Origin: Diphasiastrum complanatum
Lineage: Eukaryota; Streptophyta; Lycopodiopsida; Lycopodiales; Lycopodiaceae
Direction: 5' to 3'
Assembly (NCBI GenBank): GCA_029204225.1
Contig: CM055110.1
Span: 32,730,240 to 32,794,239 of the forward strand
DNA length: 64,000 nucleotides
Part shown: positions 8,718 to 62,690 of the stretch, in pieces
Layout: the number at the start of each line of letters is the position of its first letter
How positions within the stretch are numbered: the stretch's first letter is position 1
The notes under the pieces: generated by a model
The model's input: only the letters and a program-made list of their open reading frames with translations
Database searches by the model: none
Told to the model about the DNA's origin: nothing
Position numbers and translations under genes: made by a program

Positions 8718-9440
8718 TGTGAAGTTTTTAGCATGTGTGAACTTCACTACACACCCTACAAGATCTTACTGAGGTGTTGTGATTCACAAGATTGATCAAA
8801 GAACAGTATGCTTGAAAAATCTAAGGCAAGAGCACAATGGCATACATCTGATGAAAAAATCTAACTCTTCACTATGAGAAATGAATGTCATAAATAATTC
8901 TAAGTGTTCAGTATGGGAAAAAGAGGCCGCTCTTGGGCAGAGAGAGAAAATCATACATAGGAAACTTGCGTAGAGAGAGAATGAGTCCAAAACACCAAAA
9001 TCTCAATATTCACTATATGGCAAAACATGCCCAGCTTTCCCTACATGAGAGAGACTCAAATTCCTATAGTGGAGTTGCATGGAAAGTCCTCTTAACTGAA
9101 CTAATTCACCTACCAGAGATCCACATGTGTAACTGCATGCATGTATGGTGCATGTATTGCATGTCAACTCATAAAATTGCCTAGACATGTGTAGATCACA
9201 GAAACTACTTTGCATGTTGCATGCACTGATTGCATGTGGCTTGCATGCATACAGTAAGACTTTGCATGCTATCAAAACATCTGCATATCATCATAATGGA
9301 ACCTATCAAACTCAAATCCGAGCTACACTAGAAGCATATGTGCTCAATTCACACTCCTTATATGTACAACATGAAATCTAGTGGAAATTATCATGGACAT
9401 GACCCCAAACCCGAGATAGGAAGATAATATTTTAATAATC
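8718..9440 (-). repeat. 5' LTR of the minus-strand copia relic, outer edge uncertain
   Basis: The inner edge (TGTGAAGTTTTT at 8718) is fixed by the adjoining primer-binding site. The sequence is rich in TGCATG words between 9130 and 9270. The outer edge was not found; the inverted-duplication arm begins at about 9449, so the LTR may be truncated there. Confidence 0.55.
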
Positions 9441-9448
9441 TTCACAAG

Positions 9449-15133: not shown

Positions 15134-16186
15134 TGCTATTTTCAAAGCTTAGGCGACAAAAATCTCTTTGATATTATATGATAATTCAATTTTTCGTCTC
15201 ACATTTAATCTCATGAGAATGCCACAGTAGTCATAGTTACTATGCATACTATATTTCTAGTTACTATGCATACTATATTTCTATAACTGTAACTAGTCTA
15301 GTTAACAAATTTCATTATACTAACCAGTATAGTTAAATAAATTTAATTTGGAGTATTGTCGTCGGGCAGATTCGGGCAGGAAGAGCGACCCAATGGGATA
15401 TGTCCATGCTGCCCGACGCAAATTTCAAAGTTTGGTGTAATATATTTTTATTTTTCAGTTTATTTGAGCTACGTTGCGTAGATTTGAAATTTGTGCATTT
15501 TGATTGGGCCGGGTGGTGGTAGAAACTAAAGAAAAAATATTAAAAGTATCTTTACAAAGGGTCTTTTTTAATTTGGAATTCCTCAATGCATCCTTTTATT
15601 TAGTATCAATAATTGATGTTTTGATATTGATTGGCTTGCAAATTTTGCCTGGTGATTACACAAGCTACCATGTACAAATTCAGGCAGGAGTTAATCTTTA
15701 GCATCCTTGGTAGTACCATATGTTGTACTCCCACAGGGGCACTACAGCACTAATGATGTACATATAGAGAGCTATAGAGAGCAAAGAAGAGAGATTTGAT
15801 AACGTCCCAAATGCATTAATTACACTATATAGATAGAAATAGATTCATGAAGAAAGACATTTGTACAATTGTACTAAAGCTTAACTTGTGGCTTTCTTTT
15901 ATTGAATAAATTCATGAATATATAGATGTTCTTCTGCAATGTCAATTGTCGATAGAAGATCTTTGCAACTTGTGATCAGCACTTGTCTTTTTCTTACGTG
16001 TAAGAAAATCAACGTGCTAATGTATACATTCATTGCATGTAGTTTTATCTGCAATGATAATAGTGCTAGATCCATGTTTGTAGAGGTAAAGCTACCAAAG
16101 GGATTTTTGTTTGAAGCTTGCAATATCACAGTTTATCTCCAAATTAGGAGTCCTACCATTGCGATACCAAAGTTAAAACTAGAATA
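15134..16186. other. No recognisable gene; 24-bp tandem duplication
   Basis: A 24-bp unit is perfectly duplicated at 15235-15258 and 15259-15282, within an AT-rich run with TAGTTA words. Short frames at 15504-15701, 15899-16129 and 15939-16187 do not resemble known families. The sequence at 15360-15420 is more GC-rich and contains CCCGACG. Confidence 0.4.
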
Positions 16187-25730: not shown

Positions 25731-26383
25731 TGTGAAAAACTCAGATCCAAAAGATGCTAAAGTTTCATAAAGATCTTGGCCATGGAAGTTATGCACATCT
25801 AGATTGAAAAAATGATAGAAATTGTGATGTTAAGCATACTAAACATCAACTAAACATCAAAATCTGATCATAAGCTTCCACAAACAGAAACTTGCTGTCC
25901 CTGTCCGTACTTCAGAGCCTACAACCTGCATTTCACACGTGTGAAGCCATAGCAACAAAGAAATCACAATTCTAGTGGCTAGAATGCAAGATATGAACAA
26001 AAAAGTGAGAGAGAAGAAGATGGACCTTCAAAGAGCATAACATTCATTCAATAGAATGAAAATGAGATGTGTACATACTCGTGGAGATGGCTATTTATAG
26101 CAGCCATAGTGCCTCTTGGCCACTTGTCTTATGATAGGCTAAAATTGGGGTCCAATAGGATTCACCCATATACCTAGAAATTTGGTCAAATAGGAATGCA
26201 CCAAATTATGAGCCAATAGAAGAGCTCCACACTCGACCTCCTCTAATTAATGTGACCTCAAAAGTAGTGTACACATACTTTGGGCCTCTACATACATGTA
26301 TGAACCTATCTCTAACTTTTATTTGGCCATAGGCCTACAAAATCTCAAGTTAGGAAAATACTACTAGTTGACAATTTTTCACA
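25731..26383 (-). repeat. 3' LTR of element A
   Basis: The 653-bp LTR starts TGTGAAAAAC and ends TTTTTCACA in plus-strand coordinates. It holds the palindrome TTCACACGTGTGAA (25932-25945) and, on the minus strand, CTATAAATAG (26091-26100). The stop codon of the polyprotein lies inside it. Confidence 0.98.
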
Positions 26384-29300
26384 CTCCCTCTTCAACTAGT
26401 TTTAGCATAGATTTAGAAAGTACACCAAGACTTGTTCTATGCTTGAAAAATAAGTCCTTTCCCAATGCTTTGGTAAAGATATCAGCCACACATTCCTTTG
26501 ATGGGACATGTTCAAGCTTGATCTCTTTTGCCAACACTTGTTCTCTCACAAAATGGTAAGCCACCTCGATATGTTTGCTCCTTGCATGGAAAACCGGATT
26601 GCTTGCTAGACTTTGGGCTGAAAGGTTGTCACAAAAGATGATTGGACTCTCTGAAAAATCCAGCAAATGAAGCTCCATAATCATCCTCTTGATCCACACC
26701 ATCTCCTTTGTGCATGATGTCAAAGCTTTGTACTCGGCCTCACTAGAAGAAAGTGATATAGTTGCTTGTTTCTTCGACATCCATGAGATAGCTCCATCAC
26801 CTATGAAAATAGCATGTGCATTTATGGATTTTCTATCCATAAGGTCTCCTGCAAAATCTGAATCTGAAAAACCAAATAAGTTAGGTGATGAGCCTCTATA
26901 AACAATGCCAAAATCTTTTGTTCCCGAGATGTATCTCAAGATCCTCTTTCCTAGTTTCCAATGTTCTATGCTAGGATCTTGCATGAATTGGCTTAATCTA
27001 CCAACACAATAAGATAAATCAGGTCTTGTGATGGTTAGATATATAAGAGAACCTATTAGCTTCCTATAGAGAGTAATGTCCTCGAAGGATCTTTCATTAC
27101 CTCTTATAGTTAGCTTTACATGTGATTCCATAGGTGTATCAATAGGATTTGCATCTACCATATGAAATCTATTGAGAATAGAAATAGCATACTTCTCTTG
27201 TGAAATAAAAGTGATTTGAGAAGTTCTAATTACTTCTATTCCTAAGATATAGCTCAAAAGACCAAGATCATGCACTTCAAATTCCTTTTTTAGTGCTTTC
27301 TTGATATCTTCTATATCTTCCTTGTTCCCTCCACTTAAAATAATGTCATCCACATAAATTAGAAGGATTGTAACATCATTAGCACTAATTCTAAAGTAAA
27401 GTGAATGATCATACTCACTCATAGTGAAGTTTTGAGAAAGTAGAAAAGAGTTAAGCCTAGCATACCAACTCCTTGGTGCTTGCTTAAGACCATACAAACT
27501 TTTTTGTAGAAAACACACATGATTAGGCTTGCTATGAGAAACATAGCTCTCGGGTTGCTCCATGTAGACTTCCTCTTCAAGATCACCATTCAAGAAAGCA
27601 TTAGAAATGTCTAATTGCCAAAGATCCCATCCATAAAGAGTTGCAAGGGAAATGATTACTCTTATGCTCACCATCTTTGCCACGGGTGCAAAGGTTTCCT
27701 CATAGTCAATGCCATGCTCTTGAGCATAACCTTTAGCCACCAACCTTGCCTTCAACTTGTTGATAGATCCATCTTGATTTGTCTTTACCTTGAAGATCCA
27801 TTTGCATCCAATTGCACTTTTGCCCTTTGGAAGCTCCACTAATCTCCATGTGTTGTTCTTCATAAGTGCTTCAAACTCAAGATCCATTGCTTGGATCCAT
27901 TCCTCTTCTTGCCTTGCTTCATCTACACATGAAGGTACATCAAAAGAAGTTAGGAAAGCATAGTTGGATCCATCCACCACTTGCTTACCTTTGCCATCAT
28001 AAGTGAGCCTTGAGGGTTTCACTTTATGCCTTGGAGTTCTCCTTGGAATTTGACTTGAAGAGGCTTCTTCAACATCCACATCCAATGTGTCATCAACTCC
28101 ATTGTCATCAAGCACATTAGTTGCAACAACACCATCATCACTTGAAACAACTTTTGGAATGTTACTTTCATCAAAAATGACATCCCTACTTGTGAACACT
28201 TTCTTGATTGAAGGAACATAAATCCTATATGCTTTGCTTACTTCACTATAACCAACAAAAATGCCCTTTCTTGAAGATGGATCCTCCTTAGTTCTATCAT
28301 CAAGAGTAATGTTGAAGTAGCAAATGCATCCAAAAGTTCTTAGAAACTTGACATTAGGCTTCGTACCAAACAAAGCTTCAAAAGGGGTTTTTCCTTCCAA
28401 TACAACACTTGGCCATCTATTGCATAGGAAATTTGCACACAACAAAGCATCACTCCAAAAAGGTTTAGGAAGATTAGCATTCAATCTCATTGCCTTTGCA
28501 CTCTCACACAAGGTTCTATTCTTCCTCTCGGCCACTCCATTTTGTTGTGGTGTTCTTGGACATGTGTACTCCCTCTTGATCCCATGCTCATCGCAAAAGG
28601 CTTTGAATTTGTTAGAAATGTATTCACCACCATTGTCGCTCCTCAAGCATTTGATTTTGGTTGTAAATTGAGTCTCAATAGCAACTTTGAACTTGACAAA
28701 CACATCAAACACCTCATCCTTGCTCTTTAGTAGATAAACCCAACAAAATCTACTAAAATCATCAATGAAAGTTACATACATCTTAGCACCTCCATTGCTA
28801 ATTGTAGTAACACCATGAATATCCGAATGCAAGAGAGAAAAAGGCATCTTAGATCTAGATATAGATCTAGTATATGGCAATCTATGTGATTTAGACAAAG
28901 CACATTCTTCACAAACATGATTCAAGCAAGTAAGAGACTTGGGAAGTCCCCTTACTACCTCCTTTTTGGCTATTACCTCCAAGGCCTTGTAGTTGAGATG
29001 TCCCATCCTTTTATGCCATACCTCTTGAATTGACATTTGTTCATTTGCCATGCATCCAACTTGGTTAGCAACAACACATGCATCAAGCTTGAACAATTTC
29101 CCTTGCCTTTTCCCTTTTGCAATGATACTACACCCCTTTTTGATCAAGCAAGCATCACCATCAAACTCAACTTTGAATCCTTTGTCAAGCATTTGGCTTA
29201 CACTAAGTAAGTTCTTGGTAATGGATGGAATGAGCAAAACATCTTTCAATTCTATATTCCTATTTGTAGAAAGTGAAATAGGAATTGTGCCAATCCCCTT

Positions 29301-30329
29301 GATTGCACACTCACCATCATTTGCGGTATAGATTACCTTCCTATCACCATCAAATGCCATTAAAGATGAAAAATACTCTTTATGATATGTCATATGAGAA
29401 GTGGCTCCACTATCAATCCACCAAGGATCAATGTCTCCATGATTAGCCAACAAGCAAGATGACATAACAAAAGCATCATTTGAAAGAAGCTCATCCCCAC
29501 CCTCATCAATAGTTAGATTGGTTTGCTTTTCCCCTTGATCCCTCTTTTTCTTAAAACAATCACTAGCAAAATGCCCTTTGACTCCACAATAGAAACATTT
29601 TAGCTTAGATCTATCCTTCTTTTTGCCAAAAGTAGAGTGCTCACCTTGGTCTTGCCCTTTAGACCAATTGCTTTTACCTTTGCCCTTGAACTTGCCTTTA
29701 GAGAACATTGCCTCCTCTTCTCCTCCTTGAGATGTAGAAGATGCTCCCACTCTTGCTTGCAACCTGAATTCTTCAGCCAACAAGACCTCTTGCAAGTCTC
29801 CAACACTTGGTAAACATTTTTGGATAGCATAACTTTGAACAAGATTAGCATGATCATCCAACAAGCCATTGAGAATCACTTGAACAAGCTCCTCATTATT
29901 TATGCCATCATTAATGCATGCTAACTCATCATTCAATGCTTTAACTCTCAAAACAAAAGCATGTCCATTCTCACTCTTCTTTTGCATACAAGAAAAGATT
30001 TGCCTTCTTAAAGTCAACACTCTAGAAGTAGACTTGGATTCATAAACCTTCTTCAAGGCTTCCCAAGCTTCACTAGATGATGTGCACTTACCAACCTCTT
30101 TGATAAGCTCATTTGTCACATTCATCTTGATCATGTGAAGGGCTTTCTTTGCCCTCTTGTCATACCTCAATTGTTCTTGAGGTGCCAAAGGTCTCTCCTC
30201 CACACCTACAACAATATCCATCAACTCATTCATCTCAAGCAAAGACTCCATCCTTACTTTCCAAGTAGAATAGTTGAGGGAGGTAAGCCTATCATTGCTT
30301 TCCAACATGTAGCCTCCATTTGTAGCCAT
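26379..30329 (-). CDS. Copia Gag-Pol polyprotein of element A, intact
   Basis: This single 1316-residue ORF encodes all copia functions. Gag occupies the N-terminus (SNDRLTSLNYSTWKVRMESL), with the zinc knuckle CFYCGVKGHFASDC at 245-258. Protease follows with IDSGATSH (Asp306). The pre-integrase zinc segment has its paired His (HKRMGH) and Cys (CEEC). The integrase core carries the triad Asp503 (HSDIHG), Asp565 (RSDNGGEY) and Glu601 (VAERKNRT). Reverse transcriptase has YVDD at 992-995, and RNase H has SDSDFAGD and SSSEAEYKAL. No stop or frameshift is present, so it could be active. The ATG at 30329 matches the MxxxGGYxxEsxxRLT start of the family. The stop codon lies three bases inside the 3' LTR, so the polypurine tract is translated. 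Gag and Pol share one frame, as is usual in copia. Confidence 0.97.
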   Translation of the reverse strand: MATNGGYMLESNDRLTSLNYSTWKVRMESLLEMNELMDIVVGVEERPLAPQEQLRYDKRAKKALHMIKMNVTNELIKEVGKCTSSSEAWEALKKVYESKSTSRVLTLRRQIFSCMQKKSENGHAFVLRVKALNDELACINDGINNEELVQVILNGLLDDHANLVQSYAIQKCLPSVGDLQEVLLAEEFRLQARVGASSTSQGGEEEAMFSKGKFKGKGKSNWSKGQDQGEHSTFGKKKDRSKLKCFYCGVKGHFASDCFKKKRDQGEKQTNLTIDEGGDELLSNDAFVMSSCLLANHGDIDPWWIDSGATSHMTYHKEYFSSLMAFDGDRKVIYTANDGECAIKGIGTIPISLSTNRNIELKDVLLIPSITKNLLSVSQMLDKGFKVEFDGDACLIKKGCSIIAKGKRQGKLFKLDACVVANQVGCMANEQMSIQEVWHKRMGHLNYKALEVIAKKEVVRGLPKSLTCLNHVCEECALSKSHRLPYTRSISRSKMPFSLLHSDIHGVTTISNGGAKMYVTFIDDFSRFCWVYLLKSKDEVFDVFVKFKVAIETQFTTKIKCLRSDNGGEYISNKFKAFCDEHGIKREYTCPRTPQQNGVAERKNRTLCESAKAMRLNANLPKPFWSDALLCANFLCNRWPSVVLEGKTPFEALFGTKPNVKFLRTFGCICYFNITLDDRTKEDPSSRKGIFVGYSEVSKAYRIYVPSIKKVFTSRDVIFDESNIPKVVSSDDGVVATNVLDDNGVDDTLDVDVEEASSSQIPRRTPRHKVKPSRLTYDGKGKQVVDGSNYAFLTSFDVPSCVDEARQEEEWIQAMDLEFEALMKNNTWRLVELPKGKSAIGCKWIFKVKTNQDGSINKLKARLVAKGYAQEHGIDYEETFAPVAKMVSIRVIISLATLYGWDLWQLDISNAFLNGDLEEEVYMEQPESYVSHSKPNHVCFLQKSLYGLKQAPRSWYARLNSFLLSQNFTMSEYDHSLYFRISANDVTILLIYVDDIILSGGNKEDIEDIKKALKKEFEVHDLGLLSYILGIEVIRTSQITFISQEKYAISILNRFHMVDANPIDTPMESHVKLTIRGNERSFEDITLYRKLIGSLIYLTITRPDLSYCVGRLSQFMQDPSIEHWKLGKRILRYISGTKDFGIVYRGSSPNLFGFSDSDFAGDLMDRKSINAHAIFIGDGAISWMSKKQATISLSSSEAEYKALTSCTKEMVWIKRMIMELHLLDFSESPIIFCDNLSAQSLASNPVFHARSKHIEVAYHFVREQVLAKEIKLEHVPSKECVADIFTKALGKDLFFKHRTSLGVLSKSMLKLVEEGV
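26384..26393 (-). other. Polypurine tract of element A
   Basis: The minus strand reads GAAGAGGGAG directly before the 3' LTR. It also encodes residues of the polyprotein C-terminus (EEG). Confidence 0.85.
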
Positions 30330-43318: not shown

Positions 43319-46300
43319 CTAACTTGGCAAATCTAGTGTACATCTATCTACAATTCCAAGAGCATATCTTAACTTAAAAAATGGATCTTTGGACAATGGT
43401 TTGGTTAAGATATCAGCTATGCATTCGGATGATGGTACATGATGTAGTTGCACTTCCTTGGATTGTACCTTCTCCCTCACAAAGTGGTGAGCTATCTCAA
43501 TATGCTTTGTTCTAGCATGGAAGATAGGATTTGAAGCAATTTGTTGAGAAGCTTGATTGTCACAAAATATGTAAGGGATCTCCTCGGCCTCTAGCACATG
43601 TAGTTCCATCAAGAGTCTTCTTAGCCATAAGAGCTCTTTGGTTGTTGAAGTCAATGCCTTGTACTCGGCTTCACAAGAAGATAGTGAGATTGTATCTTGC
43701 TTTTTGGAAAGCCAAGATATCACTCCTCCACAAAGAAATGTTGCAAATGCACTAATGGACTTCCTATCCATCTTGTCACCTGCAAAATCTGAATCCGAGT
43801 AGGCTCTCAAGTGCAAGTTAGATCCTTCATAAAGTATACCAAAAAATCTAGTACTAGAAACATATCTAAGTACTCTCTTGGCACTTTTCCAATGATGAAT
43901 TAAAGGAGCTTGCATACTTTGACTCAACTTGCTTACACAAAAACTTAAGTCAGGTCTAGTGATGGTTAAATAGATTAGAGAGCCTATAAGCTTCCTAAAG
44001 AGAGTGATGTCCTCAAAGGATGCTTCATCACCTTCATTAGTTGCTTTCACAACATGCTCCATAGGGGTGTCAATCCCCTTACAATCTTTCATACCAAATC
44101 TTTCAAGAATGGAAGTAGCATACTTAGATTGACTTATGAAAGTACAATTGCTACTTCTAGACACTTCTATCCCAAGTATAAACTTTAGGAAGCCTAGATC
44201 TACCATCTTGAACTCACTAGATAAGTCAACTTTTACTTTGCCTATGCCATCATCATCATTTCCTGTCATAATGATGTCATCAACATAAAGAACCAAAATG
44301 ATGATCTTTCCTTCATTACATTTGAAATATAAAGAAGGTTCATAAGCACTTAGTACAAAGCCAAGGGAATAGAGAAAATCATGCAACCTAGAGTACCAAG
44401 CTCTAGGTGCTTGCTTCAAGCCATATAGGCTCTTCCTTAAGTAGCACACCTTTTGCTCCTCACCAATCTTGATGAAGCCCTCGGGTTGCATCATGTAGAT
44501 TTCCTCTTCTAAGAAGCCATTCAAGAAGGCATTTGTCACATCCATTTGGTAGAGATCCCATTTGAACAAAGTAGCAATGCAAATGATTAATCTAATAGTT
44601 ACAAGCTTAGCTACAGGTGCAAATGTTTCTTCATAATCCAATCCTTTTATTTGAAGAAATCCCTTAGCAACAAGCCTAGCTTTGTATTTACTAATAGATC
44701 CATCTTGATTGTACTTAATTCTATAAATCCACTTACATGCAAGTGGTTTCTTTCCTCTTGGAAGATTTACAAGATTCCAAGTATGATTTTCTTCTAATGC
44801 ATCATACTCTACTTGCATTGCATCTCTCCAAACTTTAGATTTACATGCTTCTTCAAAAGATGATGGTTCTTCAATCAATGTAGATAAAAAAGAGTAAGAG
44901 GTAGAAGATGTAGAGCCTTCCTTTTGCTTTCCCTTGTCCACATAGGTAAGCCTTGAGGGCTCGGCCTTGCTCCTTGATGATCTTCTTGGCCCCTTTTGAC
45001 TTGGATCCAAATCTCCATCCTCGGGTTTGTCATGATCCTCCTCGGGTTTGTCAAGATCCTCCTCGGATTTGTCAAGATCTTCAATGCACAATGGGTTAGA
45101 TCCATTTGACAAGCTCTTAGCAAATTGTGACTCATCAAAAAGTACATCCTTGCTTACCTTTACTTTCTTGGATGTAGGATCATATATCCTATATCCCTTG
45201 CTATTTTCTCCATAGCCAACAAAGATTCCTTTGAAGGAGGTAGCATCTTCTTTCCTTCTAGTCTCCAAAGGAATGTGTACATAACAAGTACATCCAAAGA
45301 TCTTAAAATATTTTACATTGGGTTTCTTATCAAACAAGGCTTGATAAGGTGAGATCCCATCTATAGCACTACTAGGAAGTCTATTACACAAATAATTAGC
45401 ACATGTTATGGCTTCTCCCCAAAATGAGATGGGAAGTGATGCATCAAGCCTCAAGGACTTTGCACACTCACATAGACTCCTATTTTTCCTCTCGGCCACC
45501 CCATTTTGTTGAGGGGTGTAGGAACAAGTGTATTGTAACTTAATACCATTGATCTCACAAAAGTCTTTCATTTTATTGGAGGTGTACTCTCCTCCATTAT
45601 CACATCTTAGTGCTTTGATAGAAGTACTAAGTTGTTTCTCTACTAGAGACTTGAACTTAATGAAAGCTTCATAAACAAGATTTTTCTTTGATAGTAACTC
45701 AATCCATGTGAATCTAGTACAATCATCTATAAAAGTTACATACATCAAGGCACCTCCATTACTTGCATGTGAAAAACTATGTACATCAGAATGTATGAGA
45801 TCCAAGGGAGAGAGAGATCTTGATGAAGATTTCTTGTAAGAAGATTTGTGTGACTTTGCAAGGCCACATGCCTCACACATTTTTCCACACTTCTTGAAAG
45901 CTCTTGGTAGGCCGAGAGCTAGTTCCTTGCTTGCCATTGACTCCATAGATTGAAGATTAGGATGGCCTAATCTCTTATGCCAAAGCTCCACTTGAGTTAG
46001 CTCCTCCCTAGCCAAGTTCACACTTTCACTTGCAACATTAGCATCCAGCTTGAAAAGTCTACCTTGCTTAATGCCACTAGCTATGCACTTATCATTTTTC
46101 AAGATGGAACAAACTCCATTCTTGAAATGTACATCTAGTCCATTGTCCATTAATTGTCCTACACTAAGCAAGTTTCTTGAAATGGTAGGAACATACAAAA
46201 CATTATCTAGATCTATCCTTTTAGATGTGCCTAAACAAAGAGGTATAGATCCTATGCCATCTATCTTGCATGCTTGATCACTAGCAGTGTATATTGACTT

Positions 46301-47299
46301 CTTAGAGTCATTACAAGATAGAAGAGTAGAAAAATAATGCTTGTTAAAGGACATGTGGGAACTAGCCCCACTATCTATCCACCATGTGTCTTGACTTGAA
46401 GTTGGTGTAGATGCAACCATTAAGGATGTGTTGAATCCATCCTCATATTCTTCCTCTTGAGCAATGTTCCCTTGATCTCCTTTGGCTTGTTGATTCTTCT
46501 TCAAGTAGCATTCTGAGGCAAAGTGTCCTTTCTTTCCACAAAAGAAACACTTTAGTTTTGCCTTGTTCTTCACTTTGCCTTTGGAGGTAGATCCTCCATT
46601 CTTCATCTCGGCCTCCTTGCCTTGATTTTTCTTGAATGGATTTTGCTTTTTCTTGCCTTTAGATGTAAAGTTAGCTTTCTCCTCTCCTCCATTAAGTGAC
46701 ATGCTATCCATTCTTGTCTTGAGGTGTAGAAGCCTACTCTCCTCGGCCACAAGAACATTGTGCAACTTTTCAATGGATGGAAGAGAGTCTTGAATGGCAA
46801 ATGATTGGACTAAGTTGGTAAACTCATCACTTAGACCATTCAAAATGATTTGTACTAGTTCTTGATCTTGGATCTTCTCTCCTATTGCACTTAACTCCTT
46901 GTTAAGAGATTTGATCCTAAGAACATACTCTTGTCCACTCTCTCCACTTCCTTTCATGCTTTGGAAAACTTGATTTCTTAGCATGAGGATTCTTGAAGTA
47001 TTGTTGGATTCATAAATGCTCTTTAATGAATCCCAAGCCTCTTTGGATGAGGTACAAGAAGACACCTCTTTCAAGAGGTCATTGCATACATTTAACTTTA
47101 TGCAATGTAGAGCTAATCTTGCTCTCTTCTTGTATTTGGCTTGTTCTTGGGGAGTTTGAGGCTCTTCCTCTACTCCTTGAACTATGTCATATAGATCATG
47201 GATCACTAGGAGTGATTCCATTCTCACTTTCCAAATGGAATAATTTGTGGAAGTGAGTCTCTCACTTGGTTCCATCAAATATCCACCCATGGATGACAT
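43319..47299 (-). CDS. Copia Gag-Pol polyprotein of element B, intact
   Basis: The 1326-residue ORF has Gag (PSERLTSTNYSIWKVRMESL), zinc knuckle CFFCGKKGHFASEC at 251-264 and protease IDSGASSH (Asp309). The pre-integrase zinc segment (HKRLGH, CEAC) precedes an integrase triad of Asp505 (HSDVHS), Asp567 (RCDNGGEY) and Glu603 (VAERKNRS). Reverse transcriptase has YVDD at 1005-1008, and RNase H has SDSDFAGD and SSCEAEYKAL. Between integrase and RT there is a short acidic repeat (EEDLDKPEEDHDKPED, about 746-762) encoded by near-identical 18-bp units. No lesion is seen. The ATG at 47299 is the only start consistent with the family N-terminus. Unlike element A, the stop precedes the polypurine tract and LTR. 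Confidence 0.97.
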   Translation of the reverse strand: MSSMGGYLMEPSERLTSTNYSIWKVRMESLLVIHDLYDIVQGVEEEPQTPQEQAKYKKRARLALHCIKLNVCNDLLKEVSSCTSSKEAWDSLKSIYESNNTSRILMLRNQVFQSMKGSGESGQEYVLRIKSLNKELSAIGEKIQDQELVQIILNGLSDEFTNLVQSFAIQDSLPSIEKLHNVLVAEESRLLHLKTRMDSMSLNGGEEKANFTSKGKKKQNPFKKNQGKEAEMKNGGSTSKGKVKNKAKLKCFFCGKKGHFASECYLKKNQQAKGDQGNIAQEEEYEDGFNTSLMVASTPTSSQDTWWIDSGASSHMSFNKHYFSTLLSCNDSKKSIYTASDQACKIDGIGSIPLCLGTSKRIDLDNVLYVPTISRNLLSVGQLMDNGLDVHFKNGVCSILKNDKCIASGIKQGRLFKLDANVASESVNLAREELTQVELWHKRLGHPNLQSMESMASKELALGLPRAFKKCGKMCEACGLAKSHKSSYKKSSSRSLSPLDLIHSDVHSFSHASNGGALMYVTFIDDCTRFTWIELLSKKNLVYEAFIKFKSLVEKQLSTSIKALRCDNGGEYTSNKMKDFCEINGIKLQYTCSYTPQQNGVAERKNRSLCECAKSLRLDASLPISFWGEAITCANYLCNRLPSSAIDGISPYQALFDKKPNVKYFKIFGCTCYVHIPLETRRKEDATSFKGIFVGYGENSKGYRIYDPTSKKVKVSKDVLFDESQFAKSLSNGSNPLCIEDLDKSEEDLDKPEEDHDKPEDGDLDPSQKGPRRSSRSKAEPSRLTYVDKGKQKEGSTSSTSYSFLSTLIEEPSSFEEACKSKVWRDAMQVEYDALEENHTWNLVNLPRGKKPLACKWIYRIKYNQDGSISKYKARLVAKGFLQIKGLDYEETFAPVAKLVTIRLIICIATLFKWDLYQMDVTNAFLNGFLEEEIYMMQPEGFIKIGEEQKVCYLRKSLYGLKQAPRAWYSRLHDFLYSLGFVLSAYEPSLYFKCNEGKIIILVLYVDDIIMTGNDDDGIGKVKVDLSSEFKMVDLGFLKFILGIEVSRSSNCTFISQSKYATSILERFGMKDCKGIDTPMEHVVKATNEGDEASFEDITLFRKLIGSLIYLTITRPDLSFCVSKLSQSMQAPLIHHWKSAKRVLRYVSSTRFFGILYEGSNLHLRAYSDSDFAGDKMDRKSISAFATFLCGGVISWLSKKQDTISLSSCEAEYKALTSTTKELLWLRRLLMELHVLEAEEIPYIFCDNQASQQIASNPIFHARTKHIEIAHHFVREKVQSKEVQLHHVPSSECIADILTKPLSKDPFFKLRYALGIVDRCTLDLPS

Positions 47300-49098: not shown

Positions 49099-49119
49099 AT
49101 ATATAGACTGACTCATTGT

Positions 49120-49260
49120 TATTCCGATAGAAGTCAAGCCTTGAAGACCTCTGTTCTTGTCAATAAGGCATTACTTTGGCATTATAGATTAGGACACTTG
49201 AATCATACATCTTGTAAGATTTGACAGTTTTCACCTTGATTAAGTTATTTGTTTGATATC
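49120..49260 (+). pseudogene. Copia pre-integrase scrap
   Basis: The plus strand reads NKALLWHYRLGHLNHTSCKI, the His-containing start of the copia GAG_pre-integrase zinc segment, and then hits a stop. No neighbouring copia sequence is continuous with it. Confidence 0.75.
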
Positions 49261-49408
49261 TATGTGGATCCACACGTGTGATGACCTATCCACATGTGTG
49301 AAAATGGATGTGCAAAGTTCAGATCCATTGTACATAGCTTTCATATGAGACAAATTCCAAATCTCCTATTTTCTAAGAGGCTAAAGCATGGTTTGGTGGT
49401 GGACTTTC

Positions 49409-49967
49409 TGTCATGTGCTGCATGTAATTAGCCCATGAGCTTACTAATGAATTTCCAAACATAGCCATGCAGCTAAATTAGATTAGAACTAGTCAATAGG
49501 ATAGTTAATAAAGTGGTTCGAACAACCTCGCTAGAATTGAGAATAGAGAAATTGTAATAATGGTTGTAAGGCCCAAATTAGCTGAATAAGGCCCAAACTT
49601 ATAGTAGAGACACAAATGACCACTATAAATAGCTGATGTCGTGCTAAATTTGGAGGCTTTTGTTCATTTTGTAATTTTGAGTTTTAACAGATCTTGGAGC
49701 TTCTCTTGGAGAGCTTTCTTGATGGAGAAAATGGCTCATGTGTCTAAAATCACATGAGAGCTATGTTCATGCTCTACAGTCAGGCCCTATTTGTGAATGA
49801 TCAATAATCATGAATAAAGATACCTTACTTTGCCTATTTTGGTGAAGTTTTGCTACTTTTAGCTATCTTCTTGATTTTTGACTAGTTTCTTGATTTCTTG
49901 CATTTCCATTGTAATTGATGTTTAATGAATGGATTAGATGTTTGAATGCTAAGGTTGGCACATGAAA
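49409..49967 (+). repeat. 5' LTR of element D
   Basis: It starts TGTCATGTG. The end reads CACATGAAA where the other LTR has CACATGACA. The two LTRs differ at a number of positions, so the insertion is older than elements A and B. A TATA box (CTATAAATAG) lies at 49623-49632. Confidence 0.9.
49623..49632 (+). promoter_or_regulatory. TATA box in the 5' LTR of element D
   Basis: CTATAAATAG is conserved at the equivalent place in the 3' LTR (about 54989-54998). Confidence 0.65.
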
Positions 49968-49971
49968 ATTT

Positions 49972-49983
49972 TGGTATCAGAGC
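49972..49983 (+). other. Primer-binding site of element D
   Basis: TGGTATCAGAGC lies four bases after the 5' LTR, matching initiator tRNA-Met like the copia elements here. Confidence 0.9.
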
Positions 49984-50652
49984 ATTAGATCCTTTCTCCA
50001 TCAGATTTGGTGGATTTTGTTAAATTTGGTTGAGTTTCTTGTTTAAGCTTTCTTGATTTTTCGATTTCCAACAAGCTTTGATTCAGCTATTGACTATCTA
50101 ATTCCTTTTTTTTTTTGTGTAGTTTCTTGTTGTACATCAATAGACCTCTCTTTTAGCTTTCTGGAGGTACTGAGATTGCCTGATTTGGAGCTATAATGAC
50201 CAAGTTATGGCCATTTTAGTGTTTTCTTTCCAATTTTAGCTATTTGTAGTTTTTTGCAGTCTATTTTTCCCATTCTTGGCTGAATTTTTGGCCAAACTTT
50301 CTGACTGTAATTTTGTAAGATTGTAAATCTCATCTTAGCTTGAATCTGAGCCACTTTGCAGCCAATTTGGTTGAAAATTGAGGGAGATATGACAAATCTT
50401 GTGGAAGAGGTCAAATTCTAATTTGAGTAGAGAATTTGGGAGAGAAGCACTTCAATTCTTCATTCTTGAAGGTTTACTTCCTTGTAAATTTTTTCCCATT
50501 TCTTCATTTTGAAGATTTTTCCAACTCATTTAAAAAAAAATTATCAGCCCTAACCCTGAAGGCCTAACCTAACCTACCCTAACCCTAAAGCCCGAACCTA
50601 AATCTACTCTCTCTTCACGCTAGTTCTCTCTCTCCACGCCATCATTTGGACC
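49984..50652 (+). other. Element D leader, first part
   Basis: This T-rich sequence has no convincing frame. Near 50555-50600 it has a cluster of CCCTAA-like words (CCTAACCTAACC, CCCTAACCCTAAAG) that resembles plant telomere repeats only loosely. Confidence 0.45.
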
Positions 50653-51123
50653 TTCCTTTTCATATAGCTCTGTTAAACGTTGAACATTGAAGAACTGAAA
50701 ATCATGCAATTGAGGCATGCGAGGAATTTGAGGCTCTCTTGGCTTTTAGCTGGACCTTCGGTGTGCATTGTTTGTTTGAAATAATCTGATTCAGAGTAAT
50801 TGTGCTTCCGTTCACGCTTTGGCGGCTCAATCCAATTTTTGCAATCATCTTTTTCAGGTTGAACTTCCCTTCCTCCTTTTCATCTTTATCATCAAAGTCA
50901 TAAAAACCAGCAGCATCATCCATCTTGAATTTGATGGCATCCTCAGTAAACTACCTCATTTTATCGTCAAGCTCAGCTATGGCTTCTCCTCCTTTTGCAA
51001 TTATTCAGTCAATGTTTTCATCTGTGATTGTGCTATCTTTTGAACTGAAGACCATCACTATGTTTTTTATTATTCTTTCATAGTCTGTAAGCTCTTTGTA
51101 GTGCTCCTTGTAGCATTGCATAT
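50653..51123 (-). pseudogene. ISWI chromatin-remodeller gene fragment, antisense in element D
   Basis: On the minus strand 51056-50653 reads MVFSSKDSTITDENID, a stop, IIAKGGEAIAELDDKM, a stop, then FTEDAIKFKMDDAAGFYDFD, a basic segment, and after a one-base shift NWIEPPKRERK, NYSESDYFKQT, IPRMPQLHDFQFFNVQRL and TELYEKE. This order is characteristic of the region after the helicase in plant ISWI ATPases (CHR11/CHR17 type), leading into the HAND domain. Just upstream in the same sense, 51123-51060 reads CYKEHYKELTDYERIIKNI, which resembles the SLIDE-domain segment that lies further C-terminal in intact ISWI. So two pieces have been joined out of order. The ATPase itself is absent. The fragment is non-functional as protein and lies antisense to the element transcript. 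Confidence 0.85.
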
Positions 51124-52508
51124 CCATGAGCGCTGGCTCACTGCGTGTTACTGAGTGCTGATCCATGAGCGTTGGCTCAATGAGGTCACGAATTCTAGGC
51201 TCTGGCCATGCACGTACTTCTTCATTTGTCTATAAAAGCTGCTTTGTCAGACTTCATCCATACCTTTTGAGAGCACTGGTTCGCAAGTGGTTCAACACAT
51301 TCTAGGAACTCTGCATTGTCGTGAATTGTCATGCATTATCTCTTACATCGGCTACATCATCTCTCTCTATGTGTCGGCTATATTCGGCTACATTCACCGT
51401 CGGCTACATTCCCCGTCGTTGAGATCCTCTCTCTCTAAAAGAACGTCGGTTGAGATCCTCTCTCTAAAAAGCGTCGGTTGAGATTTTTTTCTCTTACTTG
51501 CCCCTGTGCCCATGCTGACAAAATCTTCCTAGCACCCTACTTGCCCCTGTGCTCATGCTGCCAGAATTTCTTGAGCACCCCAACTGATCGCCCAAGTAAC
51601 CAAGAAAAAAATTTGCCGTCATTTTTAGGATTTCTATGAGTATCTTTCATCAACGATCCAATGCTCCAAAGAAACCAACCTTTTCTATAAAGGTCCCTTT
51701 CTAAGTTTGTAATTTCCCTGTCTTCGTGTAGCCTTAACTTTTGCGTTTAACGTCGGAATTCAGTGCATTAAGAACAAAAATTGCTCAGTTCACTACGCTG
51801 AGTACAATGATCATCATTTTGTCATCATTATGTACTTCTTATTTTTAATTTTATTTTAGGACCCTTTGTCCTAAGTTGTTTACACCTTATGTTTTATTCA
51901 TTCAATTGACCATATCTCATTCGTTTGAGCTCGGATTTCAGTGCCATAGAAAGCAAACTTCATTAGCTCAACAAGATTGTCAGTGTATAAGTCTTATTGG
52001 GATCAAAATCTGACATTTTTCAAAAGTCCTATTTATTTGCTCTAATCGAAAAAACCATTAGAGGAGTTCTAAATCCAAAAAAGACCCTCTGTAAAGATTC
52101 TTTTTATATTTTTTCTCAAATTTTTCTTACACATGGACCAATCAAAACACTCAATTTTGAAATCTACGTAACATAACTATTTTGAGTCCACATTTTGATT
52201 CCACACTAAAAATGGCATATCTTTTTAATGGTGAGTCTGAATTTAGCGGAGTTTGGTGCATTGGAAAGCGCTCAACAAGGGCTTTCCAATGATATGTTAG
52301 ATGACATACTTCTGAGCCTTGACTAAAAGGTTATGGCAAGTCAAAAGTATTTGTGTTACAATATTTTAATCATATAAAACACATCTTGCATGAATTCTTA
52401 AAGGGTCTTTTTGGAGCTCAAATCTCCTCTAATGTCATGCCTATTGTTACTGCTTAACTACACCTTGTTAAAACTAGTTTCCATTACATCACCACTTTCT
52501 TCCCAAGA
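51124..52508 (+). other. Element D leader, second part, with short tandem duplications
   Basis: No gene recognised. Features are a near-duplicate CCATGAGCG(C/T)TGGCTCA pair (about 51123 and 51162), CGGCTACATT and GTCGGTTGAGATCCTCTCTC repeats (51340-51482), and an imperfect 43-bp tandem duplication starting TACTTGCCCCTGTG (about 51496 and 51538). A module at 52184-52370 is homologous, in inverted orientation, to the interior of the TIR element at 55380-55745. Confidence 0.55.
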
Positions 52509-54390
52509 TTGCAATCCACAATTTCAAGATTTAGTTATTCCACATCGACTCTAATGGGTTGGCATTACGAACAAGAGGATGACGATCAGTCATACTGTGA
52601 TGACGATTGTGACAATGATGTGGGGGAATATTGGAATCAAGGTGATGATTACATCGAAGATCATGATCAAGGTGACAACATCGTTGATGACAATCAATAT
52701 CAAGACCAGAACGATGATTTTGCTAATGATCATCAGTATCAGAACTACAATGACACTTCAGAACTTGACCATTACTTTGAAGATTTCAACGACGATCAGC
52801 AAAGTGAAGAACACACGAACCAGTCATTGAAGATGGCTCTACAGATGAAGCAGTTGAACCATGTGATGGTCAGGATGAACTAGAGTTCAATGATGGTGAT
52901 AATCAAGATCAAGATCAATTCCAGTTTGAAGCGACAAGCATGGATGAGCAACAACAGGTGCAAAGTGGAACAAAATATCACTACGAGCCCATGGATCAAT
53001 TCTATGATCTTGATGAACTCAAAAGACGATATCACCATGCTGTAGAACAACATTTTGATCATAATGAAGATGATAATGTTGATTATGAGGCCTATGAAGA
53101 TGCCTATGAAAGTGAAAAAATTGATTACAATGAAGGGTGTTCTCTCTATGCCACTACAGGTATGATTGGCCCTTCTCTGATGGGTACATCATTTGCTTAT
53201 GCAAATGATTTTAAGGAGGGAAGGAATATTACTATGGCTAGTGGAGCGACAATTTCCAGTCCCCATGTCAATTTTGTAGGAAGTCTAACACCATCAACTC
53301 AACAACAATGGGTCAATATTCATGGAAGATCAAATAATAGCGTAGACCCTACTATTAGTAAAGTGAGCGGTGGAACAAATGAAACAAACAGGACAACAAT
53401 TACAAGAAAGGTCAGAGCGAAGATGGGAAGAAATGTACAACAAGATGGCTGCTCATTTTGATTCTATCTTGCAATCGGCTGGTATTCCACAACAGCCAAT
53501 TGATATTCGAACTACGAATCCTGAATTGTATACCACTGTTGATGTCTATGGAACAACGCTTTCTCTAGTCCAAGCCAAAGGTCGATCGAGATGTTTTGAG
53601 CAAACAAGATCATGAATCTTCTGATGAAGCTGATGATTTCAAGGAAGAAAACAAAATTCTTAATATCGATCTATCTTCCATGGAGACAAATCATTATCAG
53701 CAAAGCACCAATGGACAAGTGGATGAAGACCAACTTGAGAATCTAGATCAAGTCTTGTCCGATAGTTGTAATGATCAGGACCAAGGTCAAAATAAGGAGG
53801 TATACTATGAGCAGAACAAACTTCTACAACGACAATTAAATTATGGAGTACAATTCGATTGCCGAGAATTATGCTCTACTCCACAAATCAGTGGTTACGA
53901 CCATATTATTGATAATGATATATATGGAATTATTGCTGAACATGGATCAAGCGAGCGATATACCATTGATGCAAAATTCAAATACCAATATAGCAACGAG
54001 CTTTTTGATGATGAAATTGTTATCAACATTGCTTCAATGAAGTCAATAATAAGAGATCCATCCAAAGATCTGAAGCAAATATGCACCGAGCTAGCAATCA
54101 ATGAATCTAATGTGATATTGATGTAAGGAGTTGGTGCAAAATCTTTGAATATTCTGGCATTGGAGAATGTCATCAATCCTATTCAAAACCGTCAAATTCC
54201 TTGTGTACAGATGACCAAAAAGATCCCTACACTGCATGGGATTTGATGAATCTGAATGTGGGATGCATGGCTCTAATAACTACTCTGGAGTTACAAATGG
54301 ATACCACTATGCTACATCAAGGAGCTATACATAAGGCTAGAGCACTGGATGCAGTGACAAAAATAGATGCATCTGGAATTGGATAGCCCA
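52509..54390 (+). pseudogene. Acidic Asp/Gln/Asn/Tyr-rich ORF of element D, frameshifted
   Basis: I do not recognise a domain. The frame starts MQSTISRFSYSTSTLMGWHY and is extremely rich in Asp, Gln, Asn and Tyr (DDDQSYCDDDCDND, NQYQDQNDDF). A shift near 52830 leads to VIEDGSTDEAVEPCDGQ and FYDLDELKRRYHHAVEQHF. A second shift near 53385 leads to a helical segment (RSERRWEEMYNKMAAHFDSI), and a third near 53580 leads to LSKQDHESSDEADDFKEEN. It stops at 54126, with coding-like text continuing to about 54390. The intact protein would have been about 600 residues, acidic and largely disordered. It might act as a Gag-like or RNA-binding partner, but there is no zinc knuckle to support this. Confidence 0.55.
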
Positions 54391-54762
54391 TCCAATCAAG
54401 GACGATACTGAGGAAGAAGACTTTCAAATGTCTGTTGCTTGGATCCTGTCAACCCATGCAGAACTAATACAACTTGAGGCTTTTCTGTTTTTCATCAATC
54501 TCTTCTTCAATGATCTTATCAAATCTATGGGATTAGTTGTAGATCAAAGGTTCTTTATGAAGAATTCTTGTTGCAACCTTGTTCTACGCTAAAAAGTTGA
54601 GACAACAAAATCTGATGTAGATGGCTACTGAAAAGAATAATACAAGAAAAGATGTTTCTTACTCAGGTCGGCCAAATATCTTCGACTACCACCAACGGAT
54701 TCATGAAGCATGGCACCAACAAAAGAGCTACATGGTCTTCATTTTTGAGGGCAAAAATACTT

Positions 54763-54775
54763 AAAGTAGGGGGAG
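54763..54775 (+). other. Polypurine tract of element D
   Basis: AAAGTAGGGGGAG lies directly before the 3' LTR. Confidence 0.85.
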
Positions 54776-55335
54776 TGTCATGTGATGCATGTAATTATCC
54801 CATGAGCTTACTAATGAATTGCCAAATATAGCCATGGGACTAAATTAGATTAGAACTAGTCAATAGGACAGTTAATAAAGTGGTTCAAACAACCTTGCTA
54901 GAATTGAGAATAGCTTCTTCTAATAATGGTTGTGAGGCCCAATTTAGCTAAATAAGGCCCCAAACTTATAGTAGAGGCACAAATGACCACTATAAATAGC
55001 TGATGTTGTGCTAAATTTGGAGGCTTTTGTTCATTTTGTAATTTTGAGTTTTAAGAGATCTTGGAGCTTCTCTTGGAGAGCTTTCTTGATGGAGAAAATG
55101 GTTCATGTGCCTAAAATCACATGAGAGCTATGATCATGCTCTAGAGTTAGGCCCTATCTTGTGAATGATCAATGATCATGAATAAAGATACCTTACTTTC
55201 CTATTTTGGTGAAGGTTTGCTACTTTTAGCTATCTTCTTGATTTTTGACTAGTTTCTTGATTTCTTGCATTTCCATTGTAATTTGATGTTTAATGAATGG
55301 ATTAGATGTTTGAATGCTAAGGTTGGCACATGACA
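54776..55335 (+). repeat. 3' LTR of element D
   Basis: This LTR of about 560 bp has perfect 9-bp inverted ends (TGTCATGTG and CACATGACA) and is followed by the target duplication CTTTC. Confidence 0.92.
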
Positions 55336-55340
55336 CTTTC

Positions 55341-55807
55341 AAGGACACTATATTTTTTGGGTAGAAATACATTATACACTATTTTAAACTAATACCTTTG
55401 ACTTGCCATAAATTTTTAACCATACCTTGAAACTATGCCATGTACCATATCATCGGAAAGCACTTGTCAAACGCTTTCTAACGCACCAAACTCCCCTGCT
55501 AAAATTGGACTTACCGCTAAAAAGTTATGTAATTTTTAATGTGGACTCAAAAAATTATGATTAATAAAATCCCCATACTTTTGACTTGCCATAATGTTTT
55601 AACTGTAGTTTGAAAGTATGTCATGTAACATATCATTGGAAAGCACTCATCAGCGCTTTCTAGTGCACCTAACTGCGCTGAAATTGGACTTACCACTAAA
55701 AAGTTGTCATTTTTAATGTGGACTCAAAACAATTATGAGTAATAAATTTCCCAAAAAGTGAAATGTACTACCAAAAGGTACAATAAAAAATGAGTTCTTC
55801 TTTTGTA
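55341..55807. repeat. TIR element interior with tandem units of about 180 bp
   Basis: Two imperfect units (about 55380-55560 and 55565-55745) share the order GACTTGCCATAA, TTGAAA.TATG, CATATCAT.GGAAAGCAC, AAATTGGACTTACC, AAAAGTT and TTTTTAATGTGGACTCAAA. The same module occurs inverted inside element D (52184-52370). Confidence 0.75.
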
Positions 55808-58930: not shown

Positions 58931-59867
58931 TTACAAATATCAATCAAGCTCTGAAACAAAACGAAACGAAACGAAGCAAAACTAGGTGAAACGAAGCGAA
59001 ACTTAAACGAGTCTGATATTGACATTGCTAAAGTGAAATCAAATTAATCGTGAATGAAAATAATTCGGATGTATTTCAGATATGATTGCTGGTTACTGCC
59101 TGCTATATCATTCCTACAATCCTCCAGAAAGTAGACAGGCACTGTTGATCTACATCATAGATTAATACAACATTCAACAAAACTGAACCAGTGTGTGAAA
59201 TTGATAAAACAAGTGAGTGAGATACACATGCGATAGCAGACAGTAGTTCATTTAAGATCAGACAAAATTGAGAGTGATATGTGCGTAATAGCTATAGTAT
59301 CATCTGTTGATCCTCTTGATTTCGAGGGTTGTATGACAGACCCACACAATGCATTGGCGTGAGAGAGAATAGTGTTCTCTCATGAGTAGTGTCTCGCTTA
59401 CTAGCGGACTTCTTGGATCTCTATAGATTCTGCTTACAAAATTGTCTCGCTCATAGGCGGACTTCTATTCTGTATATTTTCTATCTACTACTGTATGTAT
59501 TTTATGCATCTAGTAATTGCATACATTCAGAGTAGCATATCTGATTGGATATATTAAACAATCTATCACTAATCATGGATTACAAGAGAGGTGGATTAGG
59601 CCTGTCCTAACGTTCTTCCTCTGACGTCATCATATCAGATCAGGATTTTTTGTACTTCATGGTACTTGCATGATCTTCATGATCCTTTGGAACGTGAAGG
59701 TCAAAAGATGTCCGGAAGATTTTTCTGTCGCTTCGAGTCGTTTGACTTTCACATCGTCTGACTTTCTCCTGTTGTATCACAAACATTTTTCTTTCACAAA
59801 CATTTCACGTTTGTGTCTTTTCGTCAGGATGTTCGCGAACATTTTTGCTTTGTGTCTTTTCGTCAAA
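58931..59867. other. Probable 3' LTR region of the downstream copia relic
   Basis: No gene seen. It contains an imperfect AAACGAAACGAAACGAAGC run near 58955-59005 and two ATTTTGCGAAC/TTTTCGTC-like words near 59815-59870. In minus sense it follows the pol tail of the 59868-62690 relic, so an LTR is expected here, but I could not fix its ends. Confidence 0.4.
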
Positions 59868-62690
59868 CTAAGAGCTGAAAGCTAGCAAAGCTTTGGTAAT
59901 AGAAACGTTTTGTTTCTTCAGCTCCCTCTTAAAGCATGGTAGCTTGATGACTCCAAGACTGCTCCTCTGTTTCTTGAATAAACATTTGTCTAAGGCCTTT
60001 GTAAAAATGTTAGCCACCATTTCCTTTGTTCCAATGAAAATAGTCTGCAATATCTTCTTCTCGATCAGATCCCTTGTCAAGTGATACTTGATTGCGATGT
60101 GTTTTGTACTTGAGTGAAACACAAGATCCTTTGTCAGATGTATTGTCCATCTGCAAAATCAAAGGCTCATTCCTTGTTTCACCCAGTTCGTCAAGGAATT
60201 GTTTGAGCCAAATGATTTCATTAGCCATCTTTGTTGCTGCAATGTACTCTGCTTCGTAGGATGACTGAGCCACAATGTTTTGTTTCTTGCTAACCCAGAG
60301 AATGGCTGCTCCTGACGTGATGGTGTATCCTCTTGAGACACTTTTGCAGTTGTCCTTGAGAGATGCCCAGCTAGCATCACTGTAGGAATGCATCTGGAAC
60401 CCTACATCACGAGAATAACACAAAAAAAAATCTTTCGTTAATTGAAGGTATTGCAAAATTTGTTTCGCAATCTTCCAATGAGTTGAGACTGGATTCGTAT
60501 AGAATTGGCTTATCCTGAACATGGCATAAGCAATGTCAAGACGTGTGTTATCTAGAAGGTACATCAATGATCCGATCATCTTCCTATATGGTGTAAGATG
60601 CATCAATTCTCTTTTTTCTTAAGTCTTCGAACAGTCTTCATTCATCACGACTGTTTCTGCAAGCATTGGAGTATTTGTTCTTTTGCAACCCAGCATCCGG
60701 AAATCTTCTGGGATTTTTTGGGTATATCTGGACTAATGAAGGTACAATTTACCCCCCTCATAGTCCAATAAGTTCTTCACTTTTGCAGAATATCAAAGTG
60801 TCGTCCACATGTACAGCTACAATGATGATCTTCCCATCTATAATTCTTACATAAACATTGGAATCAGCCATTAGTGGCTTGAATCCCATTAGTCTTTCTT
60901 ATTATACCATTGTCGCACTGATTGCTTCAGACCATAGATACTCCTGTGCATTCTACATGCATAAGTGGGAAGTGAATTTGAAATTTAGCTTGGCGGTTGA
61001 TCCATGCAGACTTCTTCGTCTAGCTCACCATGCAAAAATGTTGTTTTCTCATCCTTGACGTGAATCCTTAGATCATAAGCACCTGCATATGCAAACAGTT
61101 GACGTAGGGACGAACATTTCACGACAGGAGAGAAGGTCTCAGCATAGTCAATACCATACCTCAAAGAAAATCCCTTTGCTACAAGTCTGGCTTTATACTT
61201 AGAAATATCTCCATTTGGTCCATACTTCAGCTTGTATACCCACTTGCATTTTACAGTCTTTCGCTTGTATAGTAATGGCTACAACGTCCATACCTGATTC
61301 TTCCTCTTGGATTCCATCTCCTCATTCATGAATTGGATCCATTTGTCCTTCTCTAGACATTCAATTGCTTCTTCGAATGTTTGTGGTTCTCCACTGAATC
61401 CACAAAACTCTTCTGATGTAGAAGCTGAGCTGCCTGGCACAAATCTTGCTGGAGCTCTTCATTCTCTTGTCGATCTTCTGGGAGATCCTTCTAGAACTGC
61501 AATGCTCTTGCCTTTATCTGCTCTGCTAGGTCCAAAACCATTTTGGTTTACATGTACTGTAGCAGTAGGCTGGCTTGCGAATCTTTCTTTGTCTGATTTG
61601 TCACTCGAATGAGGTGCGACTTTAAACATCTTCGTCTGAGTGTTCGTCCTCTGCTCCCTCTGTCATAGTTGGTAGATCATAGTACTGTCTTGCAAGGACT
61701 TCATAGCTGACAAGATCATCGTTGGCCATTGTTCTGCTCTCATCAAATTTGACATCTCTGATTATCTTCATTGTGTTTGTCTCTGACATATAGACTCTGT
61801 AGTATGACGAATGATTGTCATATCCTACAAGATATCCTTGTTCTGCTTTCTCATCAAGTTTCTTTCGAAGCTTATCAGGAACATGTGCATAAGCTGCACA
61901 ACCAAAGATTCGGATGTGAGTCAAATTGGGTTCTCTACCCCACCATAATTCATGTGGTGTCATGTGAGGAACACCAAATTTTCCTATCCTGTTCTGAATG
62001 TAAGTAGCTCTAGCTACTACTTCAGCCCACAACACTCTTGGAGCCTTCGAATAGGCCATCATGCACCTGGCAGTATCCATTAGAGTATATAATACTTTGA
62101 GCCTCCTACTAAGATCACGCTGAAAGGTCCACAGATGTCTGAATGTACAAGCTCCAGAATTTTTGTAGTTCTGTAGGAGTTTTTGACAAAAGGAGTACGT
62201 GACATCTTACCCTTCATACATGCATCACAAGTCATCGAACTGGTTGCATTCGAGATGCTCACTCCTGTGATTGCTCCATGATGGCTTGCTTGATATAGTG
62301 CCATTGAATTCATATGGCATAGTCTCTTGTGCCATAGAGTATCTGGCGAATCATCATGAGTCTGATGTAGTTGATCTGCAGGTAGCGTACCTTCAAGTGA
62401 TACAGGTTGCCTTTTCTTCTACCTTGAGTGATAAGTGTACTGGTACTTACATCAACAACGTTGCGTGCTTCGTCTGAGAACGTCACAAGCATCCCTGCAT
62501 CAGCTATTCTTGCCACTGGTTGCAAGTCCTGCTGCAGCGTAGACATGAACAGAACATCTTTGAGTCGTCTGTCTCTACCGTTAGCGTTGAGCCATAGTGA
62601 ACCAATACCATTCACTTGATGCTTTGATCCATCTCCAAGAAGGATAAATCTTGATGGATCTGCACTTCGAAAATCAGACATGATCCGTCT
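59868..62690 (-). pseudogene. Copia pol relic lacking the integrase core
   Basis: In minus-strand order: the protease C-terminal half (DGSKHQVNGIGSLWLNANG, DVLFMSTLQQDLQPVARI), pre-integrase CDACMKGKMSRTPF, and the integrase start ELVHSDICGPFSV. It then jumps directly to MDTARCMMAYSKAPRVLWAE, IRIFGCAAYAHVPDKLRKK and EQGYLVGYDNHSSYYRVY, so about 100 residues with the second Asp and the Glu are deleted near 62080. The RT part is badly broken but HVDDTLIF (60800-60811, His for the usual Tyr) and RKMIGSLMYLLDNTRLDIAY are clear. RNase H (SDASWASLKDN, SSYEAEYIAATK) and the tail HSSTKHIAIKYHLTRD and ANIFTKALD follow. It belongs to a family different from A and B and is inactive. Confidence 0.92.

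Follow-up and report, generated by a model that had tools for sequence, protein, structure and literature searches.

The window studied here is a stretch of 64,000 nucleotides from Diphasiastrum complanatum. At 49409-55335 it contains a long terminal repeat (LTR) element of 5.9 kb in which paired LTRs, a primer-binding site (PBS), a polypurine tract (PPT) and a target-site duplication (TSD) of 5 bp are all present; together these define the orientation of the element. Between the PBS and the open reading frames (ORFs), an ISWI ATPase gene is present as a broken copy that extends from about 50653 to 51124 on the minus strand. This cargo has the introns of its parent gene removed and consists of two blocks in the wrong order. 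The parts of the element are the following.

49404..49408, target-site duplication CTTTC, left copy, read in the sequence
49409..49967, plus strand, 5' LTR, about 94% identical to 54776-55335
49972..49983, plus strand, primer-binding site TGGTATCAGAGC, read in the sequence, which we take to be of the initiator-tRNA-Met type
50548..50646, plus strand, end of the leader with CCCTAACC and a CT-rich tract as direct repeats, directly before the cargo
50653..51056, minus strand, ISWI block 1: five consecutive parent exons from the helicase end to HAND, without introns; exon joints at 50707/50708, 50799/50800, 50875/50876 and 50913/50914
51057..51124, minus strand, ISWI block 2, presumably the SANT-SLIDE linker: pieces of two exons further downstream, partial and out of order; exon joint at 51084/51085
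51122..51323, further module, in common with the ISWI-less family member L041 (94% identity)
52509..54126, plus strand, three broken acidic ORFs without Pfam match
54763..54775, plus strand, polypurine tract AAAGTAGGGGGAG, read in the sequence
54776..55335, plus strand, 3' LTR, pairing with the 5' LTR
55336..55340, target-site duplication CTTTC, right copy, read in the sequence

The two LTRs are separated by a Kimura two-parameter (K2P) distance of 0.052 over 555 sites. The leader is common to four other members of the family (L041, L048, L049 and L050) up to 50510-50581. For the module at 51122-51323, no exon-split host parent was found in any of the 34 scored matches.

The original prediction had read six peptides as an ISWI fragment lying antisense inside an LTR element. 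All six were located, on the minus strand at 50674-51100 and in three reading frames. The single-frame stretches were searched separately against sequences of solved structures, with stops entered as X, and they match human SMARCA5 (PDB 8v4y) in the correct order: the first at residues 653-729 (expectation value, E, 1.1e-8), the second at 723-758 (E 2.6e-4) and the third at 758-788 (E 0.028). Also returned with the first stretch were two chains (E 0.04 and 0.93) that are unrelated to it. When the three frames are joined by hand into one query, the match to SMARCA5 reaches E 3.4e-25, while the HAND profile gives 25.5 bits on the cargo, slightly below its cut-off of 26. Judged from the sequence, the ISWI match of the cargo is far beyond chance, and the peptides, their order in SMARCA5 and the DNA match to a parent gene all bear out the prediction.

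A second piece, resembling SLIDE, had been described as joined on the wrong side. The peptide from this side has no match up to E 10 among the solved-structure sequences. At the DNA level, 51058-51087 and 51085-51106 match two further, downstream exons of the same ISWI gene, and it is on this match to the parent exons, not on a protein match, that we accept the assignment and with it the misplaced joint.

The parent gene was found on contig C7 when the source genome (1.74 Gb, 5176 contigs) was searched, and pieces of seven of its exons are present in the element. DNA identity to the parent is 90.7-100% for each of the seven pieces, and in the five-exon block 377 of the 401 aligned bases are identical. 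Introns of 152, 1449, 102, 3159 and 609 bp are absent, exactly, at all five joints, and the splice signs at these joints are consistent with the antisense strand. Block 2 stands on the wrong side of block 1, and both are antisense to the element. Since five introns are absent at exact joints, the source must have been spliced mRNA, and since the two blocks are in the wrong order, copying was discontinuous. The two blocks may overlap by three bases where they join, but these bases are mutated and do not decide the matter. Whether the introns were missing or kept had been proposed as a check, and the answer is that they are missing: the element has captured a fragment of a host remodeller gene, and the match is not the native gene interrupted by the element, as the native gene lies elsewhere. 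For comparison, papers on plant Snf2 proteins give, in the parts that bear on introns, family-wide intron counts only (PMC6458923, PMC9820626).

A different element on contig C13 (L031), distantly related to that of the window, carries the same ISWI block. Its LTR ends at 4116, a PBS-like TTGGTATTAGAGC follows at 4121, and the end of its leader is 71.6% identical to that of the window element. The block has the same ends and the same out-of-order joint as in the window, with 85.5% identity when gaps are counted. Further, the block is surrounded by pieces of other host genes. To its left there is a piece of a KH-domain gene, with its parent at C7:36237100, from which a 130-bp intron is absent. 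To its right there is a piece of COG6 (67/67 bases; Pfam COG6_C 30.8 bits, cut-off 26.4) and cargo from an HSP90-like gene, the parent of which matches HATPase_c at 31.3 bits (cut-off 26.4); HSP90 is the name we assume for this parent. In all three the coding strand is opposite to the element.

K2P distances, with gaps left out, differ strongly between the leader and the cargo of these two elements. Between the window and C13 the leader shows a distance of 0.378 at 50441-50646, and the ISWI block one of 0.092; the distance of the block to the parent is 0.068 in the window and 0.044 on C13. Since the leaders seem to have separated long before the two copies of the block did, the block was probably passed between subfamilies, by recombination.

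A further capture is seen in L049, on contig C18, whose leader is as in the window element (K2P 0.141). In the same leader zone it holds three collinear exons of a gene on C15, at 93-98% identity, from which introns of 2.4 and 8.9 kb are absent. The antisense strand encodes the N-terminus of a syntaxin of the 6/10/61 group (53.2 bits, cut-off 29.4), and the one readable joint fits an antisense intron of what we take to be the GC-AG class. Cargo of the syntaxin-61 type is also found at three further loci, on C2, C9 and, partly, C21. Three small contigs, C922, C1461 and C172, carry it too and are possibly second haplotypes.

The cargo of other members is less easily traced. In L041 it includes a 102-bp piece present at several loci, two of which were fetched and are without splice signs. 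L048 and L050 hold pieces in common with other element-like loci, among the 40 scored of 186 and of 209 candidates, respectively. L050 also matches two collinear pieces on C17, 6 kb apart, that may belong to a host gene. No recognisable gene was found in L045 and L047. As for structure, L041 (3189-9363) has a 5' LTR and two adjacent copies of the 3' LTR, with TGGAT as its TSD. L040, on C11, is 99.9% identical to L041 over 9000 bases, and the contig of L041, C875, is for this reason probably a second haplotype.

All five host genes that can be assigned (ISWI, KH, COG6, HSP90-like and syntaxin) are antisense to the element. None of them is a sense segment contributing to an ORF, as in transduction of the Bs1 type. 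We consider it quite likely that spliced host mRNA was captured, antisense and rearranged, in the leader zone by template switching during reverse transcription. Inside the virus-like particle, the reverse transcriptase would switch between the element template and packaged host mRNAs. The switch would most likely occur during plus-strand copying, or onto first-strand cDNA of the host mRNA; these two are preferred because the pieces are antisense and minus-strand switching would give sense inserts. Recombination between packaged element RNAs would then carry the finished block between subfamilies, and the window insertion would later spread mainly via duplication of genomic segments. As the strand of an insert tells the step of reverse transcription, the family could be used to ask when capture occurs.

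Several observations weigh against this interpretation. Five antisense genes out of five have a two-sided probability of 0.0625 by chance, and the strand rule is supported by only these five genes, perhaps from two or three independent captures, so that the rule is suggestive only. On C13, the KH exon joint lies inside a small deletion, the COG6 match falls within one exon and has weak flanks, and the HSP90-like cargo is only two short pieces of 41 and 17 nt; HSP90-like profiles on the C13 sequence itself reach 13 bits, below the cut-off. The leader distance between the window and C13 at 49967-50440 is 0.772, which is a rough value since this part is barely alignable. Microhomology at the junctions amounts to a few bases at most and is partly mutated. 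Finally, three of the four other sampled members (L041, L048 and L050) gave no clear exon-split host parent, and capture can therefore not be claimed for every member.

Classical transduction would explain the same cargo by a minus-strand switch to host mRNA, with the antisense inserts being those retained by selection, for example if sense inserts might disturb the translation of the downstream ORF. Switching between co-packaged RNAs is the account given in a review of the field (PMC13317346). This mechanism predicts sense inserts, contrary to the strand of the five assignable genes, though selection could hide the sense ones; we regard it as unlikely. Improbable is also that a processed ISWI pseudogene, made by a long interspersed nuclear element, landed by chance and reversed in the LTR element. 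The absent introns and the antisense orientation are both compatible with such an origin, but the pieces are internal to the mRNA only and out of order, and there is no poly(A) or poly(T) tract at the edges of the block. Moreover, the C13 element chains pieces of four host genes, and a fifth occupies the corresponding zone of another member. Capture at the DNA level, via a nested Pack-MULE or Helitron, is hardly credible, as all five tested ISWI introns are absent and 50400-51700 holds no long terminal inverted repeats (the longest is 26 nt, 81%) of the Pack-MULE kind; Helitron ends were not searched for.

The window element looks like a non-autonomous LTR retrotransposon with no pol detected. 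In its three ORFs at 52509-54126 no Pfam domain scores above cut-off (a whole six-frame Pfam scan was not made), and the two copia polyproteins of the window have no match in it by tblastn at E 1; gypsy-type pol was not searched. These polyproteins are encoded on the minus strand at 26379-30329 and 43319-47299, in long uninterrupted ORFs of 1316 and 1326 amino acids with gag, integrase and reverse transcriptase domains in both, and are possibly recent insertions. On C13, the stretch L031:8989-9893 is similar to a copia polyprotein, with the best E of 8.6e-24 at 9175-9893, where the fetched sequence ends; L031 is therefore a candidate for the autonomous partner in this family. A dispersed repeat is also seen inside the window element (52159-52354), inverted just outside its 3' LTR (55388-55750) and again at 15467-15588.

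The ISWI block is present in many copies. With 40 of 41 candidates scored, the count is a lower bound: there are at least 44 matches, comprising 25 element places with ISWI sequence, 5 matches to parent exons and 14 others. The element places, at least 25, are distributed as 10 on C19, 10 on C20, 3 on C24 and one each on C5 and C13. Eighteen of them cover the 601-base query nearly whole and six cover it in part, while on C13 the block alone is matched. In a genome-wide search with the LTR, 2583 candidates came up at first look; the 40 that were scored are 94-100% identical. No ISWI relatives were found in viral contigs.

To compare flanks, the sequence around all 24 other ISWI places was fetched. 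The left flank of the window insertion (49100-49408) is common to 15 of the 24, at 90-99.8% identity, and L016 has the right flank in common with it, so that 16 of the 24 share some flank. The C13 place is a different element, and seven places (L012, L013, L018, L022, L024, L026 and L027) were assigned to neither group. Because of the common flank, the 16 places are ascribed to duplication of one insertion. Barring a duplication in the assembly of this region, most copies would then go back to a single insertion that was multiplied together with the DNA around it. Many independent insertions were considered and are rejected for these 16 copies. The expectation that the block would recur in several copies of the element holds in number, with 24 other places carrying the block in whole or in part, of which 16 are duplicates of this insertion and not separate transpositions.

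Four related places (L036-L039) were considered as the empty state before capture. They match the leader up to 50646, the edge of the cargo, and are cut off there, at about 1748 in their own coordinates. L036 continues into a repeat that resembles 59242-59920 of the window, and L037-L039 are 97-98% identical to L036. Their left flank is that of the window insertion, and they are therefore rejected as empty sites and seen as rearranged duplicates.

As to what the cargo does, the best default is that it is passive filling of the leader. It might instead be active, if antisense transcripts or hairpins from the clusters gave rise to small RNAs and these reduced the level of ISWI mRNA, in the way that Pxyfem acts on Masc in Plutella xylostella, where RNAs from a cluster silence the parent gene (PMC9674220). 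Between the window copy and the parent mRNA there are seven perfectly matching blocks of 24-40 nt and 79 perfect 21-mers in total, and the 24 other copies have 36-186 perfect 21-mers each, in 4 to 9 blocks of at least 21 nt. Further, the copies are clustered, and on C20 the members of three pairs face in opposite directions at a spacing of 9-14 kb (3151258/3160342, 3224419/3237884 and 3575960/3589419); if transcribed through, they could form long hairpin RNAs. On the other side, indels and substitutions separate the copies both among themselves and from the parent, which is what decaying duplicates would show. Perfect blocks and inverted pairs amount to a potential for small RNAs rather than evidence of them, and we hold an active cargo to be rather improbable.

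If antisense cargo does yield small RNAs, there would be a natural route from a copied host gene to its regulation by a transposon, and the gene so regulated would here be a chromatin remodeller. In its widest form, the family would habitually copy host mRNAs, reversed, into one leader zone by plus-strand or cDNA switching and trade antisense cassettes between subfamilies, and the ISWI clusters on C19, C20 and C24 would be a plant counterpart of Pxyfem with small RNAs that tune the remodeller. To this combined proposal we give little credence.

With exon-only fragments and a parent still present, the window element is a gene-capturing LTR retroelement of the kind of Bs1 or of the gene-bearing terminal-repeat retrotransposons in miniature (TRIMs). 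In rice and sorghum, 672 and 1,343 genes captured by LTR elements are described, some with small RNAs; that set is based on annotated genes, and the words 'antisense' and 'introns' have no occurrence in the main text, so that no strand rule is given in those words (PMC3726574). The soybean TRIM GmaRetroS15 is likewise a small LTR element; its fragments, exon-only as here, come from three host genes, and one of them comprises exons 5-9 without introns (PMC4717578). The gene-bearing TRIMs of soybean are 1,172-1,449 bp long, compared with 5.9 kb and ORF remnants in the window element, and the sections of PMC4717578 on these TRIMs do not state the strand of the pieces or any movement of blocks between subfamilies. 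Bs1 of maize likewise holds pieces of three host genes, but it has turned into a chimeric gene that is transcribed and translated (PMC13317346), which implies inserts in sense orientation, while the pieces are antisense here.

The resemblance to Pxyfem goes further: there too, part of the cDNA of a host regulator is attached to sequence of an LTR retrotransposon, template switching is presumed, and the copies form multicopy clusters (PMC9674220). That system is from a moth, is W-linked and concerns a single gene for which silencing has been demonstrated (PMC9674220). The present one, known from its sequence alone, has five genes in one family and, in the window copy, intact LTRs and a TSD. Keyword searches of one open-access literature library found no plant LTR family with antisense, chained and exchangeable cargo. 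Gene capture by LTR elements is already known; the new part is its recurrence, antisense, in one leader zone.
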